Source: Gammaproteobacteria bacterium (lineage in GTDB: Bacteria > Pseudomonadota > Gammaproteobacteria > Steroidobacterales > Steroidobacteraceae). Taken from it: a DNA stretch of 64,000 nucleotides. Shown here piece after piece: positions 1 to 18,214 of the stretch (the first letter of the stretch is position 1; each line of letters begins with the position of its first letter). The notes under the pieces are model-generated. The model saw only the letters and a program-made list of their open reading frames with translations, made no database searches and was not told the origin of the DNA. A program made the translations under genes and the position numbers. Location of the stretch: NCBI GenBank assembly GCA_004297335.1, contig SCUD01000015.1, forward strand, positions 1 through 64,000. Reading direction: 5' to 3'.

Positions 1-516
1 GGCACGTTCCGCGTCATGGCGAACGGTGACACGCATGAGGCGACCCGGGTGCTGCTCGCCATCGGCCGGCGTGGCACGCCGCGCAAGCTCGGCGTGCCCG
101 GCGAGGAGCTGCCTAAGGTCGTCTACCGGCTGGTCGACCCGGAACAGTACGCCGGCCGGCGAGTGCTCGTCGTCGGCGGCGGTGACAGCGCGCTCGAGGC
201 TGCCACGAGTCTGGCCGAGGCTGGCGCCGCAGCGGTGACGCTGTCCTATCGTGGCGATGCCTTCGATCGTGCCAAGGCGCAGAACCGCGCGCGCGTAGCC
301 GAGGCCGCACGGAGCGGGCGGCTGCAGGTCCGGTTGCAGTCGCAGGTTCGAGAGGTCACTTCGGAGTGCGTCACGCTCGAGCAGGCGGGCCAGGCGGACG
401 AGATCCCGAACGATGCCGTCGTCGTCTGTGCGGGCGGTGTGCTGCCGAACGAATTCCTGCGTTCGATCGGGGTGTCTGTCGAGACCCACTACGGCGCCGC
501 GCCGGGATCGCCATGA
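1..516 (+). CDS. FAD/NAD(P)-dependent oxidoreductase, C-terminal part (5' truncated by window edge)
   Basis: The open frame runs in from the window edge, so the ATG at 16 in the ORF track is internal; about 171 C-terminal residues are visible. The glycine-rich VLVVGGGDSALEAA segment is the second dinucleotide-binding Rossmann motif of thioredoxin-reductase/YpdA-like flavoproteins, preceded by AIGRRGTPRKLGVPGEE, where such proteins carry the ATG motif before the NAD(P) domain. The C-terminal DAVVVCAGGVLPNEFL resembles the FAD-contacting 'G-x-x-P' end of the fold. By family it would transfer electrons between NAD(P)H and a disulfide or ferredoxin-type partner in the cytosol; the partner is unknown. 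Its stop codon overlaps the ATG of the next gene (ATGA), so the two are probably translated together. Family assignment is good; exact function is not determined. Confidence 0.8.
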   Translation, partial: GTFRVMANGDTHEATRVLLAIGRRGTPRKLGVPGEELPKVVYRLVDPEQYAGRRVLVVGGGDSALEAATSLAEAGAAAVTLSYRGDAFDRAKAQNRARVAEAARSGRLQVRLQSQVREVTSECVTLEQAGQADEIPNDAVVVCAGGVLPNEFLRSIGVSVETHYGAAPGSP

Positions 517-2381
517 AGCGCGGGCCATTGCAGTGCCAGACAGTGCTGCTGGTGGTGGCGTGGCTGACCATTGCTGGCCCGGGCGCGGTCGCCGCAGACG
601 ATGTGCTGGAGCCCGCGCGGCTCGCACTGCGCACGCGCCAGTTCGCGGAGGCTCTGCGGATTCTCGACGGCCCCGCTCGTGCGGGCGACGCCGAGGCGCA
701 ATATCTACTCGGCCTCGTGCGGCTTGGCGGTCTGGGTGCGCCGCCGGATCCGACCGTGGCTGTCGGCCTGCTCGAGGCGGCTGCCAGGCAGGGCCACGCA
801 TCGGCGGCGTACGCGCTCGCCGGGGTACTGGCGCAGCAGGGCCAGGAGTTGCCGGCGCGGCACTGGCTCGAGCGTGCGGCGGAGCTCGGCCTGCCGCTCG
901 CCGCGCAGATGGTGCGCGAGGGGCGCCTGCCCCCGACCTCCGAGCTGCCGCAATCGGGAGAGGACCTGACGCTGCGGCGGGCGCTGGCGTTTGCTGCGGC
1001 CCGGCGCGACGCGGTTGCGGCGTTCGAGAGTGTCGGTGCCAGTGAGCTCGTTGGCGAGACGGACTCTTTCGGTCGCACCCTGCTGCATGCGGCCGCCGAG
1101 GCGGGCGCGGCAGGCGCAGTCGACTGGCTGCTGGTCCATGGCGCGGATCCATCGCGTCGCGATCCGGGCGGAGTCACGCCGCTGATGCTCGCGGCTGCCG
1201 CGCCCGAGCCCGGTGCGCTGCGGGCCTTGCTGGCGGCCGGCGCAGAGGTCGAGGCTCGCGACCAGGCGGAGCGGACAGCGCTGATGTATGCGGCCTGGGC
1301 CGACCGAGCGGCGCAGGTGCAGGCCCTGCTCACGGCTGGCGCCAACGTCGCCGCGGCCGACGCTCGCGGCTTCACCGCGCCCGACATCGCGATCCAGCGC
1401 GAGCGGGCCGCTGCCGCAACGGTACTTCGGTCCGCTGGTGCCGCGGCACGGTTCAGCGGCGGCGGTGAGGCGCTTGCTGACCACGGCTTCGACGCCTCGC
1501 GCGTCGGAGAACTGCAGCGGGGCTGGCCACCGCTCGCGATCGCGGCGAGTCGCGACGACGAGATGGCTATCCAGCGCCTGATCGGTGCGGGCGGCGACCT
1601 GCAGGCGCGGACACCGTCCGGGGACACATTGCTGCATGTCGCCCTCGATGCCAGAGCCTGGCGTGCGCTGCGGGCGCTTCTGGCAGCCGGTGCGGACCCG
1701 CTCGTCGCGGATCGTGATGCTCTGCGCGTACTGTCTCGCGCGGTGCTGCGCGGCGATGGAGAGGCGCTCGAAGTGCTGCTTGCCGCCGGAGTGCCGCTGA
1801 CAGCGGTCGGACAGGGCGAAGAGCCACTGCTGCTGGCCGTCGCCCGCCGCGGTGACGAAAAGATCGCCGCGCGATTGCTGGCCGCCGGGGCCGATGCCGG
1901 TATCGCCGACGCCGCCGGTCGTACACCGCTATGGCTTGCTGCTGCCGCCGGGCATGAGCCTCTTGTCCGTATGCTGCTTGCGGCAGGCGTTTCCGCCGAC
2001 ATCAGTGATCGGGTTGGACTGACGCCGCTCACCGCCGCCGCGGCCGCGGGCCATGCGGCGGTCGTCGATCACCTGCTGGGCCAGGGCGGGAAGACGGAAG
2101 TCCGGACCGGGCGTGACGGCTCGGCGCTGATTTCCGCCGCTGCCCGCGGGCATGGCGAAGTCGTCGCACTGCTGCTACGGCACGACTTCGCTATCGATGT
2201 GCAGGATGGATTTGGAGACACTGCGCTGATTGCCGCGGCGCGCGGCGGGCACGTCGCGGTCTGCGAACGGCTGCTGCAGGCCGGTGCCGACCGGCAGCTG
2301 CGCAACCGCGATCGCCTGTCGGCGCGCGAGGTCGCCGAACGGCGCGGCTTCGCGCGACTGGCGGCACTACTGGGAGGCTAG
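513..2381 (+). CDS. exported Sel1/ankyrin-repeat protein
   Basis: 622 residues starting at the ATG overlapping the upstream stop; the ORF track start at 366 lies inside the oxidoreductase. Residues 1-28 form a signal peptide ending at AVAA. Residues ~50-135 contain Sel1-like/TPR-type repeats (AEAQYLLGLVRLGGLG, ASAAYALAGVLAQQG). From ~180 to the end there are around ten or more ankyrin repeats, with the recurring G-x-TPL-x-x-A and LL-x-AGA-D/E patterns (for example GRTPLWLAAAAGHEPLV). Both repeat types are protein-protein interaction scaffolds; the signal peptide puts them in the periplasm or outside the cell, which is less common for ankyrin proteins. No enzymatic domain is seen. Translational coupling to a redox enzyme suggests a shared pathway, but this is inference. 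Confidence 0.85.
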   Translation: MKRGPLQCQTVLLVVAWLTIAGPGAVAADDVLEPARLALRTRQFAEALRILDGPARAGDAEAQYLLGLVRLGGLGAPPDPTVAVGLLEAAARQGHASAAYALAGVLAQQGQELPARHWLERAAELGLPLAAQMVREGRLPPTSELPQSGEDLTLRRALAFAAARRDAVAAFESVGASELVGETDSFGRTLLHAAAEAGAAGAVDWLLVHGADPSRRDPGGVTPLMLAAAAPEPGALRALLAAGAEVEARDQAERTALMYAAWADRAAQVQALLTAGANVAAADARGFTAPDIAIQRERAAAATVLRSAGAAARFSGGGEALADHGFDASRVGELQRGWPPLAIAASRDDEMAIQRLIGAGGDLQARTPSGDTLLHVALDARAWRALRALLAAGADPLVADRDALRVLSRAVLRGDGEALEVLLAAGVPLTAVGQGEEPLLLAVARRGDEKIAARLLAAGADAGIADAAGRTPLWLAAAAGHEPLVRMLLAAGVSADISDRVGLTPLTAAAAAGHAAVVDHLLGQGGKTEVRTGRDGSALISAAARGHGEVVALLLRHDFAIDVQDGFGDTALIAAARGGHVAVCERLLQAGADRQLRNRDRLSAREVAERRGFARLAALLGG

Positions 2382-13121: not shown

Positions 13122-13701
13122 TCTGCAGCCGCCCCCGGCGTGACGGCGGAACGACGGCGTCGCCGCGCTGCTCGAGCCAGGCAAGCGTGGCAGGAGTCAG
13201 CAGGTCATTCTCGCGCCGGCCCTCGGGCAGCGGGCCGAGCAGCGCTGCCGGCGTGAACACGACGAGGTAGCGCCCGCGCTCCGTTGCCGGGTCCACGGTC
13301 ATGGTGGTCGCGAGCCCGGTCTCGCCGCCCGGCGTGGCGAGCGCCGTCTCGACCCTCAGGTTGTCGAGTCCCGTGAGTCGCAGGACGATGAAGGTCTCAT
13401 CGAGCACGGCCATCACCGGATAGAACACGGTACCAGGGGCTGCTGCATTGAACAGGCTCTTGACCCGGACCTGGTAAGGCACGGTCGCGCGCGGCAGTTC
13501 AAAGGCGGTGAACGGGCTCGCGCCGCTCTGGAACTGGAAGACCGGGCTCCCCCGATCGATGCGGACCTCGACCTGGCCGCGCTCCGGCAGGGTCTGGAAC
13601 GGAAACGCCGCCGGGTCCTCGCAGCAGGCGGGCACCACCGCGGCGCCGGCCGTGCAACCGGCCAGGGCCATCACACCGCAACACAGGAGAATTGCGCGCA
13701 T
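13081..13701 (-). CDS. MalM-like lipoprotein
   Basis: 206 residues. MRAILLCCGVMALAGC is a lipoprotein signal with an LAGC lipobox. The mature part has FPFQTLPERGQVEVRIDRGS, SPFTAFELPRA and PVMAVLDETF, which match the pattern of the MalM/maltose operon periplasmic protein family (PF07148). No maltose transport gene is nearby, so the name reflects the fold only. Family members are periplasmic or outer-membrane-tethered proteins of unknown biochemical role. It is divergent from oligopeptidase B and tail-overlaps the YbhN-like gene. Confidence 0.75.
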   Translation of the reverse strand: MRAILLCCGVMALAGCTAGAAVVPACCEDPAAFPFQTLPERGQVEVRIDRGSPVFQFQSGASPFTAFELPRATVPYQVRVKSLFNAAAPGTVFYPVMAVLDETFIVLRLTGLDNLRVETALATPGGETGLATTMTVDPATERGRYLVVFTPAALLGPLPEGRRENDLLTPATLAWLEQRGDAVVPPSRRGRLQITVAPQSTGSAHP

Positions 13702-13770
13702 CCATGGATTCTCGCAGACGTGCCGGCCCGGCGGAAACAGAATCGTCCGGAAATGCGCGAGCCCGTGGAC

Positions 13771-13776
13771 TAAAAT
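13771..13776 (+). promoter_or_regulatory. candidate -10 box (TAAAAT) before oligopeptidase B
   Basis: TAAAAT stands out in GC-rich sequence in the divergent region between the MalM-like gene and ptrB, 26 bases before the preferred ATG. The -35 is not clear. Confidence 0.35.
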
Positions 13777-13802
13777 ACAACTTTCCTTCGGGAATGATCA
13801 CG

Positions 13803-15983
13803 ATGCCGAGTCCTGTCGCCTGCCGCTGGTCCGGCGCCGCCAGCGCCGGCATCCTGTGCCTGATGCTGACGGCCTGCGCCACGAGCGGCGGGCCGCGTAC
13901 GGAGCCCACGAGCATGCCGACCACCGCACCCGTTCCACCGGCGGCAGCCCGGCGGCCGCACGAGGTCGTATCCCCGCAGGGGACCCGCGTCGACGAGTTC
14001 TACTGGCTGCGCGACGACACGCGGGCCGACCCGGAGGTGATCGCCTACCTTGAGGCCGAGAACGCCTACAAGAAGGCGATGACGGCACAGCTGCAGCCGC
14101 TGGAGGACCGGATCTACGAGGAGATCGTCGGCCGCATCAAGCAGGACGACAGCAGCGTCCCCTACCGGCGCCGCGGTTTCCATTACTACCACCGCTTCGA
14201 GACGGGCCGGGAATATCCGGTCTATGCCCGCCGCTCCGTCAGTCCGGAGGCGCCGGAGCAGCTGATGCTGGATGCGAACCAGCTGGCGCAGGGGCATGAG
14301 TACTACCAGGTCGCGACGCTGGCGATCGCGCCCGATGATCGCCTGCTCGCGTACGCCGAGGACATCGTCGGCCGGCGGCAGTACCGCCTGCGCTTCAGGG
14401 ATCTGGCCACCGGCGCGACGCTGCCTGAGGTGATCGAGAACGTCGAGGCAGCCATTGCCTGGACGGCCGACAGCGCGAGCGTCCTGTATGTCGAGAAGCA
14501 CCCGGAGACGCTGCTCGGCTACCGGATCCGGCGGCACCGCCTCGGCAGCGATCCGGCCGCGGACCCGCTGGTCTACGAACAGGACGATCCGAGCTTCTAC
14601 CTGGACGTCAGCACGACGAAGGACGAGCGCTACCTGATGATCACCGCGCAAAGCACGGTGTCCACCGAGTTGCGCTATGCGCGTGCCGACGATACGGAAC
14701 TGCGCTTCCAGGTGTTCCTGCCGCGCGAGCGCGACCACGAGTACGACGCCGATCATCTGGACGGGCGCTGGATCATCCGCAGCAACTGGCAGGCGCCGAA
14801 CTTCCGGTTGCTGGAGGCGAAGGTCGGCGACGAAGGTGACCGCGGCAACTGGCGCGAACTGCTGGCGCACCGCGAGGATGCCTTCATCCACGGTTTCGAT
14901 CTGTTCCGCGATTTCCTCGCGATCGAGGAACGGTCGGACGGGCTGCGCAAGATCCGCATCCGGCCCTGGCAGGGCGGCTCCGGGGACTTCTTCATCACCG
15001 CGGACGAACCGGCCTACACCGCCGTGCTCGGCGACAACCACGAGCTCGACACCGCGGTCGTGCGCTACGAATACACCTCACCGGCGACCCCGGATACCAC
15101 CTATGACTACGACGTGCGCACCGGGGCGAAGACCCTGCTGAAGCGCATGCCGGTGCTGGGCGACTTCGACCCGGCCAACTACGCGACCGAGTACCTGTGG
15201 GTCACCGCGAGGGACGGCGCGAAGGTGCCCGTGTCGCTGGTATACCGGCGCGACTTCGAGCGCAACGGCAGTGCGCCGCTGGTGCAGTACGGCTACGGCG
15301 CCTATGGTATTTCGATGGATCCACGGTTCTCGATCGCACGCCTGTCGCTGCTGGACCGCGGCTTCGTGTGGGCGATCGCCCACGTCCGCGGTGGCCAGGA
15401 GCTGGGCCGGCGCTGGTACGAGCAGGGCCGGCTGCAGCACAAGATCAACACCTTCACCGACTTCATCGATGTCACGCGCCATCTGGTGCGCGAGGGTTAT
15501 GCCGATGCGCGGCGTGTCGCTGCGATGGGCGGCAGCGCCGGGGGCCTGCTGATGGGCGCAATCGCCAACATGGCGCCCGCTGACTACCACGCGATCGTCG
15601 CCCAGGTGCCGTTCGTGGATGTCGTGACGACGATGCTCGACGAGAGCATCCCGCTGACGACCAACGAGTTCGACGAGTGGGGCAATCCCAAGCTGCAGCC
15701 CTGGTACGACTACATGCTTTCGTACTCACCGTACGACAATGTCCGCGCGCAGGACTATCCGGCGATCCTGGTGACGACCGGGCTGTGGGACAGCCAGGTG
15801 CAGTACTACGAGCCGGCCAAGTGGGTGGCGCGCCTGCGCGCGCGCAAGTCCGATGCGAATCCGCTGCTGTTCCGCACGACGATGGAGGCCGGCCACGGCG
15901 GCAAGTCCGGCCGCTTCCAGCGCTACCGGGAGATCGCCGAGGAGTTCACGTTCCTGATCGATCAGGCCGGGATCCGGCAGTAG
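13803..15983 (+). CDS. ptrB: oligopeptidase B-like S9 serine peptidase with lipoprotein signal
   Basis: 726 residues from ATG 13803, chosen because GGGA sits nine bases upstream; ATG 13794 in the same frame is the alternative. The N-terminus (AGILCLMLTAC) is a lipoprotein signal, so unlike cytosolic E. coli PtrB this enzyme should be anchored in the periplasm. Residues ~50-440 form the beta-propeller. The catalytic domain has MGGSAGGLLMG (nucleophile Ser), TTGLWDSQVQYYEPAKW (Asp region) and EAGHGGKSGRF (His), all close to PtrB. The family cleaves short peptides after basic residues; the propeller excludes folded proteins. Confidence 0.93.
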   Translation: MPSPVACRWSGAASAGILCLMLTACATSGGPRTEPTSMPTTAPVPPAAARRPHEVVSPQGTRVDEFYWLRDDTRADPEVIAYLEAENAYKKAMTAQLQPLEDRIYEEIVGRIKQDDSSVPYRRRGFHYYHRFETGREYPVYARRSVSPEAPEQLMLDANQLAQGHEYYQVATLAIAPDDRLLAYAEDIVGRRQYRLRFRDLATGATLPEVIENVEAAIAWTADSASVLYVEKHPETLLGYRIRRHRLGSDPAADPLVYEQDDPSFYLDVSTTKDERYLMITAQSTVSTELRYARADDTELRFQVFLPRERDHEYDADHLDGRWIIRSNWQAPNFRLLEAKVGDEGDRGNWRELLAHREDAFIHGFDLFRDFLAIEERSDGLRKIRIRPWQGGSGDFFITADEPAYTAVLGDNHELDTAVVRYEYTSPATPDTTYDYDVRTGAKTLLKRMPVLGDFDPANYATEYLWVTARDGAKVPVSLVYRRDFERNGSAPLVQYGYGAYGISMDPRFSIARLSLLDRGFVWAIAHVRGGQELGRRWYEQGRLQHKINTFTDFIDVTRHLVREGYADARRVAAMGGSAGGLLMGAIANMAPADYHAIVAQVPFVDVVTTMLDESIPLTTNEFDEWGNPKLQPWYDYMLSYSPYDNVRAQDYPAILVTTGLWDSQVQYYEPAKWVARLRARKSDANPLLFRTTMEAGHGGKSGRFQRYREIAEEFTFLIDQAGIRQ

Positions 15984-16000: not shown

Positions 16001-17788
16001 TCAGTCCGCCAGCTCGAAGTGCAGCCGCATCGCCACGCGCTGGTCCACCGGCACGCCGTTGCTGTGCACCGGCTCGTAGCGCCAGCGCGCGAGCGCATCG
16101 AGCGTCGCGCGGTCGAACACACCGGCCGGCTCGGCGGCGAGGATCCGCGGTTCACGCGTCGTGCCGTCGCGCGCCACCGTGAACTCGATTTCGATCCAGC
16201 CCTCCAGGCGCTGGAGCACGGCCCGCTCGGGATAGTCCGGGGATCGGAACCGCCGGCGCTGCAGCTGTGATTCCGGGACGATGGTCGGCGGTGGCGCGGC
16301 CGCCGGTTCCGCCGGCGTCGCCACGGGCTGCAGCACGACCGTGCTGATCGCCGCAGGTGCCGCGTCAGCCGAACTGCCGGCTGCCGGGATCAGCTCGACC
16401 TCGCGCTGGCCGGCGAGCCTTGCTGCCTGCAGGTCCGACCGCAGGCGCGCCAGCGCGGCGCGGTCGTGGTTCAGTGCAATCGCGTCATGGGTCCAGGCGC
16501 TCGCTGCCTCCAGGTGGCCCGCGGCCAGTTCGCGGCGCGCGTTGTTCTCGAGCAGCGCACCGAGCAGCTGGATTCCCTGGCGGATGCCGGGGTCGGCTGG
16601 ATCCAGCCGCCGACCGGCAAACAGGTAGGCATGGGCACTGTCGGCGCCGCCGACCAGGCGTCCGCTGGCCATGCGCTCACTGGCGAGCTGCACGAAGCTC
16701 TGCACGCGGCCGGCATCGCTGCGCGCGGCCCGGACATCCAGCGTGTGTCCGGCCTGCACGTCGGCCACGGTCGGCGTGCGTGGCGCCGTTGTCCGCCGGT
16801 TGCGCTCGCGCGCCAGTGTGGCGGTGAAGTCCGCCAGTCGCGGATGGTCTGGCTGCACGGAGCGCAAGGCATCGATCGCGCCGGCGAGCCCCGGAAGGTC
16901 GTTGTCAGCGCGGGCATGCTCGGCCTCGATCACGAACTGGTCGGCGATCCGCTCGATGCCACGCGTGGCGATCGGGTCGCCGGGATGCCGGGCCAGGACC
17001 GCACGATAGAGTTCGACGGCATTGCGCCCCGGCGGTTCGACGAGGCGCCCCTGGGACAAGGCGACGCCGGCGGCGTCGAGCAGGCGCAGCACGGCCGGAT
17101 CCTGGCCCGGGTCGGACTGGACCGCCGCTGACTGCGTACGCTCGGGCAGCAGCTCGCCGAGCTGGCGCCACGGCTTCCAGGTGACCAGCGCGGCGATGAT
17201 CGCGAGCAGCGGCAGCAGCAACAGGCTGCGGCGCAGGTAGCGGCGCAGGCGGGCCCGCTCGAGCCGGGGCAGCAGCAGGCGCAGACGAGACAGCTGCGGC
17301 CGCAGCGCCGCGATCAGCGGCAGGCCAGGCGCTGCCGCCGGGAGATCCGCGCCCTGCTGCTCGCGCCGCTGGGTCGCGTCGACGAAGTTGCGGATCCGCT
17401 CCGCGGAGGCGGGCTTGTGCAGGAAACGGAAGATCGCCCCCTGGGAAACCAGGTCGGCGAGGCCCGCTTCGTCGTCGCGCCGGCCGGCCACGATGATCGC
17501 GAGGTCGGGAAATTGCGCGTGAATCGTGCTGACCAGGGCGCGTGTGTCGTGGTCCGCCAGCGAGGCGTCGAGCAGCAGCACGGCGTTGCCGGCCGCGACG
17601 ACCAGGTCGGCTGCGTGGGTCACGTCGTCAGCCCGCCAGACGCGATGACTGCCGGCCAGCGAATCGCGCAGCAGCGAGGTCAGCGCCGGATCGCCGGACA
17701 GCACGATGACATTGGCGCCCGTGGGACGCTGGGGCGTCGTGGCCGCCATGTTAGTCGGCAGTCTGTTGCCGGAAGTCCGGATATTCAT
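16001..17788 (-). CDS. receiver-like domain fused through a TM segment to a periplasmic TonB C-terminal domain
   Basis: About 595 residues (GTG 17797 would add three). Residues ~22-135 resemble a response-regulator receiver: NVIVLSGDPALTSLLRDSL, VLLLDASLAD (candidate phospho-Asp), and FLHKPAS (conserved Lys-Pro). The acidic pair is reduced and the usual Thr/Ser position is Ala, so phosphorylation is uncertain. A basic stretch then a single TM (SLLLLPLLAIIAALVTW, ~residues 185-205) leads to a helical, TPR-like periplasmic region and a Pro/Ala linker. The last ~90 residues (SPDYPERAVLQRLEGWIEIEF, DRATLDALARWRYEP) are a TonB C-terminal domain. TonB proteins normally couple ExbBD energy to outer-membrane receptors; ExbBD is not in the window. 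Confidence 0.85.
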   Translation of the reverse strand: MNIRTSGNRLPTNMAATTPQRPTGANVIVLSGDPALTSLLRDSLAGSHRVWRADDVTHAADLVVAAGNAVLLLDASLADHDTRALVSTIHAQFPDLAIIVAGRRDDEAGLADLVSQGAIFRFLHKPASAERIRNFVDATQRREQQGADLPAAAPGLPLIAALRPQLSRLRLLLPRLERARLRRYLRRSLLLLPLLAIIAALVTWKPWRQLGELLPERTQSAAVQSDPGQDPAVLRLLDAAGVALSQGRLVEPPGRNAVELYRAVLARHPGDPIATRGIERIADQFVIEAEHARADNDLPGLAGAIDALRSVQPDHPRLADFTATLARERNRRTTAPRTPTVADVQAGHTLDVRAARSDAGRVQSFVQLASERMASGRLVGGADSAHAYLFAGRRLDPADPGIRQGIQLLGALLENNARRELAAGHLEAASAWTHDAIALNHDRAALARLRSDLQAARLAGQREVELIPAAGSSADAAPAAISTVVLQPVATPAEPAAAPPPTIVPESQLQRRRFRSPDYPERAVLQRLEGWIEIEFTVARDGTTREPRILAAEPAGVFDRATLDALARWRYEPVHSNGVPVDQRVAMRLHFELAD

Positions 17789-18214
17789 CGCTGTCACGGT
17801 GCCGTCGGTCCTCGCCCCGGAGAGTCCTGTCCCTGCGCGATCGTCCCCGTCCGGACCCCATCGGGCCCCGGGCGGGGACGGGCGATATTCTTTGACAAAA
17901 TCCCCGGTGGTGAACGGGACACAGGTCGCGTTTCCCCGCTCCGGACCGTGATCCAGGTCAAAAAACCCTTCCGGGTCCGCGACTTGTCCGGGGGCGACTG
18001 ACCTGGCCGCCGCAGGGGTCCATCGTCGTTGCTGGAACGCAACGCCGGGCCAACGGAGCTGGAATCATTCGAATTATGTGAACCTCGACAGGCGCCCCGT
18101 TTCCTGCTTATCTTGGCCCCCGTTGAAACCGGGTCGCCCGTCCCACAGAAAGCAAAAGAGCGCAGTTGGGTTACGGCGGGTGGCATTTGAGTTGGGGAGC
18201 TAGAGGGGGTGCAC
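17789..18214. other. 426-base intergenic region without a recognised gene
   Basis: No ORF here looks coding. It contains TTGACA at 17892 without a matching -10, a 6-bp hairpin (CGTTGC/GCAACG, 18027-18044), a short AT-richer patch around 18065-18085 (TTCGAATTATG) and a purine-rich stretch (AGAAAGCAAAAGAGCG) before the gene at 18215. It probably carries the divergent promoters of the TonB fusion and of the 18215 gene; a structured leader is possible but I cannot match one to a known riboswitch. Confidence 0.5.

Follow-up and report, generated by a model that had tools for sequence, protein, structure and literature searches.

The 64,000-nt stretch of DNA analysed here (the window) encodes on its minus strand a protein composed of a cytosolic CheY-like receiver, one transmembrane (TM) helix, a periplasmic helical (TPR-like) region, a linker rich in Ala and Pro, and a full TonB C-terminal domain. 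The fusion of the receiver to TonB_C across one membrane segment is real, and the role of the protein is probably to pass signals across the envelope, not to power the uptake of nutrients. The reading preferred here, with a rough probability of 45%, is that of a single-pass trans-envelope signalling adaptor, in which a pseudo-receiver would dock a cytosolic kinase and TonB_C would bind an outer-membrane or periplasmic partner. The open reading frame (ORF) at 16001-17797 gives 598 aa from a GTG and 595 aa from the ATG at 17788, from which the residues are counted (Table 1).

Table 1. Features of the receiver-TonB_C protein and its neighbours, in window positions.
Feature	Positions	Strand	Remarks
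Pseudo-receiver / TM / TPR-like / TonB_C fusion protein, 595 aa	16001..17788	-	alternative GTG start at 17797
Cytosolic pseudo-receiver, residues 25-142	17363..17716	-	D33, D74, K125 kept; G32, G102 at the lost sites
Predicted TM helix, residues 178-203, RSLLLLPLLAIIAALVTW	17180..17257	-	lacks the His/Ser motif by which TonB contacts ExbB
Periplasmic helical TPR-like region, residues 231-465	16394..17098	-	module shared with proteins that have Ser/Thr-kinase or TIR-like heads
Ala/Pro-rich periplasmic linker, residues 467-500	16289..16390	-	low-confidence, disordered in the model
TonB C-terminal domain, residues 516-593	16010..16243	-	YP motif and final beta strand
Divergent neighbour, 159 aa	18209..18688	+	conserved beside the window gene in its own clade; by position only
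Convergent S9 prolyl oligopeptidase	13692..15983	+	often near the gene in relatives; by position only

The order of domains proposed in the initial annotation was confirmed by Pfam, AlphaFold2 and Foldseek, and the motifs VLLLDASLAD and FLHKPAS are present as described there. TonB_C was recognised by Pfam with E=4.7e-17, well over the cut-off, and Response_reg with E=1.3e-4 and 22.6 bits, below the 30.2-bit cut-off. In the AlphaFold2 model, built from 16 relatives (mean pLDDT 79), residues 25-142 form a (beta-alpha)5 fold that is predicted with confidence (pLDDT about 90). After it come a helix (178-203), helical repeats (231-465), a disordered linker (467-497) and, from 516 to 593, a TonB CTD that reaches the end of the protein; with a pTM of 0.30 the relative placement of the domains is not meaningful. 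The two terminal domains were matched independently in the PDB by Foldseek, the receiver part to the receiver structures 3kcn and 3hv2 (E about 1e-6) and to HupR, and the C-terminal part to the TonB CTDs 6i97 chain D (TM-score 0.90, rmsd 1.2) and 1u07. The N-terminal region thus has the CheY-like fold the absence of which would have refuted the initial annotation. For the helical part, matches to TPR models were weak and came from relatives, not from the window protein.

The active-site columns of the receiver were set by alignment to an operon-encoded CheY-like protein and are uncertain by one residue, the neighbouring residue being Ala. Of 70 family sequences, 69 have the phospho-Asp, 64 the second acid and 56 the Lys. 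The first acid is mostly lost, in 45 of the 70 to Lys or Arg, and 69 have Gly at the Thr/Ser position. Conservation is concentrated on beta4-alpha4-beta5-alpha5, the usual dimer or partner face of receivers. A receiver with any of the five active-site residues missing is termed a pseudo-receiver (PMC12632262), and the window protein, which keeps the receiver fold and lacks the first acid and the T/S of the canonical set (DD, D, T/S, K), falls under this definition; judged by the aligned columns, the same holds family-wide. The acidic pair was rightly described as incomplete in the initial annotation, only its first acid being missing (S31-G32-D33); the Ala given there for the Thr/Ser site is to be corrected to Gly102, which Ala101 adjoins, and the site is non-hydroxyl either way. 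Since pseudo-receivers generally are non-acidic at the first-acid position in about 20% of cases and at the second in 80% (PMC12632262), the pattern of this family, with the first acid lost and the second kept, is the less usual one.

Two tandem pseudo-receivers precede the TM-TPR-TonB_C part in L042, L095 and other loci of Woeseiaceae type linked to threonyl-tRNA synthetase (thrRS). The first of these was considered as a canonical phosphoreceiver and rejected, its Asp being replaced (TAQDLPGM). The N-terminal extensions of L024, L025, L027 and L028 may be an upstream open frame and were kept out of the evidence.

The gene neighbourhoods form synteny groups that agree with the clades of a tree of 77 rows, built by a quick method. 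In the clade of the window protein the neighbours are the divergent 159-aa gene, which is without a Pfam match and has a modelled fold weakly resembling GNAT acetyltransferases (E 0.02), and the prolyl oligopeptidase. In a second clade a cytosolic receiver-Ser/Thr kinase, the receiver of which lacks the phospho-Asp, is encoded directly downstream at 12 distinct loci (15 counting genomes met twice). In four genomes (L029, L031, L034 and L060) the gene order is CheA-like kinase, CheY, CheX and then the receiver-TonB gene; an ancient association with the CheA set would be consistent with where L031 and L029/L060 fall in the tree, with modest support. The remaining groups have prolyl oligopeptidase, MATE and 4-alpha-glucanotransferase as neighbours, or thrRS upstream, and no signalling neighbour was found among the thrRS-linked Woeseiaceae-type proteins tested. 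A long ankyrin-repeat protein with a Sel1 repeat is encoded elsewhere in the window (366-2381, plus strand).

In the window genome the receiver-TonB gene is solitary, without an adjacent kinase; CheX was sought there and is absent, and a search for the linked type of CheA matched a single large kinase, and this in its ATPase part only. A 422-aa homologue of the receiver-Ser/Thr kinase is encoded on contig C119 and is the best available candidate partner, although the pairing is a guess.

The TPR-like periplasmic module also lies below Ser/Thr-kinase and TIR-like heads in relatives from the same class. A one-piece Ser/Thr kinase-TM-TPR-TonB_C protein occurs in genomes G055 and G041, and probably in G049; at locus L227 the two ends were recognised with E=2e-37 (Pkinase) and E=8e-13 (TonB_C). 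This 778-aa fusion, at L227:1068-3404 (G055) and on G041:C35, was not found described in the papers searched. At L168:2435-4528 and L169:1888-3471 an N-terminal domain that is TIR-like by eye is followed by the same TPR-like module. Because the kinase is fused to the scaffold in some genomes and the receiver-kinase is encoded adjacent to the gene in others, these arrangements argue for a pathway shared by the kinase and the receiver-TonB_C protein.

A signalling role fits the kinase neighbours of the relatives. Of the two proposals of the initial annotation, docking is the likely one because the receiver is degenerate; a classical phosphorelay is doubtful, since the family as a whole has lost one acid and the switch Thr/Ser, and the kinase-linked receivers in the Ser/Thr-kinase operons have no Asp at all.

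In the adaptor, the TonB_C end would capture either a TonB-box-like strand presented by an outer-membrane transporter or some other partner in the periplasm, and the TPR arm would span or sense the periplasm. Binding or tension would be relayed to the pseudo-receiver, which would work not by Asp phosphorylation but by docking a kinase of the cytosol on its conserved beta4-alpha4-beta5-alpha5 face. The docked kinase would be the pseudo-receiver Ser/Thr kinase in one clade and perhaps a CheA/CheY/CheX pathway in others, so that adaptor and kinase would work as a pair like the one-piece kinase-TonB_C proteins of related genomes. A precedent is FrzS, the pseudo-receiver of which acts through protein contact with SgmX (PMC12632262). 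Against the adaptor, the window gene has no kinase neighbour, and linkage to a kinase is confined to some clades. What speaks most against a role in docking alone is the retention of the Asp, the second acid and the Lys, and phosphorylation or Mg2+ binding may yet occur. A narrower version, which we regard as unlikely, is a two-part envelope receptor kinase: its TonB_C/TPR ectodomain would read TonB-box exposure and its pseudo-receiver would contact the Ser/Thr kinase, the TonB-type domains being sensors, not motors.

The retained residues also bear on a phosphorylation-dependent response regulator with membrane or periplasmic output, in which a CheA-type or other kinase would phosphorylate D74 and CheX or another phosphatase would reset it. 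Their retention over the family and the CheA-CheY-CheX gene order of the four genomes speak for such a regulator; the family-wide loss of the Thr/Ser site and, mostly, of the first acid, the absence of CheX from the window genome and the complete CheY already encoded in the operons, a canonical substrate for CheA and CheX, speak against it, and we hold it to be improbable to the same degree as the receptor kinase.

Slightly less probable again is a scaffold with a structural or localising role in the envelope, positioning a machine rather than signalling, in the manner of GltG/GltJ, SjdR or CpaE-type pseudo-receivers. GltG has the layout cytosolic domain-TM-TonB_C (PMC3169522), the TonB-like SjdR acts in septum structure (PMC8262864), and the FrzS pseudo-receiver positions a partner (PMC12632262). 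However, no motility or division genes were seen among the neighbours examined, and the kinase operons and kinase-TonB_C fusions point to signalling.

The TM helix bears on the proposal of the initial annotation that the receiver controls energy transduction. E. coli TonB contacts ExbB through Ser16 and His20 (PMC12215075). The window protein carries the C-terminal TonB_C domain of a TonB transducer and lacks TM contacts of the Ser16/His20 type. His was absent from its predicted TM and from that of 62 relatives; in 7 further rows the simple scan gave no clear TM. In the window genome the two remaining TonB-type proteins have the His, among them the canonical TonB on contig C90, which adjoins ExbB and ExbD. 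Linkage of TonB genes to exbB/exbD is usual, not universal. Here it is missing, all four ExbD genes of the genome being on contigs other than that of the window gene. Because the TM lacks the ExbB-coupling His, ordinary energy transduction by the protein is unlikely and the proposed control of it is not upheld.

A genuine receiver-gated TonB, energised by ExbBD and switching energy delivery to a subset of the receptors, would nevertheless be in keeping with the complete TonB CTD, close to the FoxA-bound structure, and with a genome that holds 64 TonB-dependent receptors, only 3 TonB_C proteins and 4 ExbD genes, one of which (C90:77900) is that beside the canonical TonB. Moreover, GltG of Myxococcus (FHA-TM-TonB_C) binds the ExbB-like motor protein AglR (PMC3169522). 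With the His missing throughout the family and no ExbD on the window contig, such a TonB is less likely than the scaffold.

The architecture is widely conserved in Steroidobacteraceae, Woeseiaceae and relatives. A single-sequence search of genome contigs gave no match, and the matches there were obtained with a family alignment. One ORF carries both ends at 20 of the 21 first-pass loci, the exception being truncated (L034), and at 69 of 80 named loci from the family-alignment search, some genomes being the same in the two sets. The named loci belong to Steroidobacteraceae, Woeseiaceae and other, mostly gammaproteobacterial, MAGs, and include cultured carriers (Steroidobacter agaridevorans, S. 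gossypii and Peristeroidobacter strains); L166 (575 aa), a more distant case from beyond the order, came from a search of the whole class. Two copies are broken, that at L034 (9250-10428), truncated at 392 aa, and that at L026 (5788-7521), of the same genus, with a premature stop near its end.

In four within-genus comparisons dN was 0.12-0.13 for the receiver and 0.23-0.39 for both the TPR region and TonB_C; dN/dS (Nei-Gojobori, pairs at adequate distance, dS near saturation in places) was about 0.13-0.20, 0.21-0.42 and 0.27-0.67, respectively. These ratios indicate that all domains are under purifying selection, the receiver being the most constrained part. An assembly or annotation artefact fusing two genes, to which the same-genus copy with a stop and the truncated relative might point, is so improbable as to be dismissed, a frameshift or assembly error being ruled out by the conserved single ORF, found also in cultured strains (L067, L070, L077 and L101), and by the selection on every domain; the two halves as separate genes, named in the initial annotation as the sign of such an artefact, were not what the homologues presented.

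TonB domains are known as power-transmission parts. A signalling head, whether pseudo-receiver or Ser/Thr kinase, on a TonB_C protein without the motor-coupling motif suggests that such domains were recruited as sensors or tethers across the envelope. The on/off switching of bacterial pseudo-receivers has been called a mystery (PMC12632262), and the receiver-TonB_C family, with its same-operon kinases and fused versions, makes this switching testable. No receiver-TonB fusion was found in the open-access literature, the body of work covered here as distinct from subscription papers and database annotations, and the receiver-TM-TPR-TonB_C architecture is apparently undescribed.

The comparison with known systems showed several partial likenesses. 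With E. coli TonB (TonB_C PF03544) the protein shares a single TM, a periplasmic linker and a complete TonB CTD with YP motif and final strand; unlike it, the protein adds a large cytosolic receiver and a TPR-like arm, and its TM is without the Ser/His ExbB-contact motif. With the pseudo-receivers of FrzS, the second domain of PleD and the N-terminus of CpaE it shares the receiver fold and a partly missing five-residue active site; it differs in being linked across the membrane to TonB_C, and in keeping the Asp, second acid and Lys while losing the first acid and Thr/Ser. The nearest described layout is that of GltG of Myxococcus xanthus (PMC3169522), which likewise runs from a signalling domain in the cytosol through a single TM and a periplasmic region to a terminal TonB_C. 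GltG, however, has an FHA domain in place of the receiver and belongs to the gliding machinery with AglRQS, and Pfam gave no FHA in the window protein, nor were agl/glt-like genes present among the neighbours examined; the two are likened by layout, homology beyond TonB_C not being implied. The Ser/Thr kinase-TM-TPR-TonB_C proteins have the same scaffold as the window protein and carry a catalytic kinase head where the latter has a pseudo-receiver.
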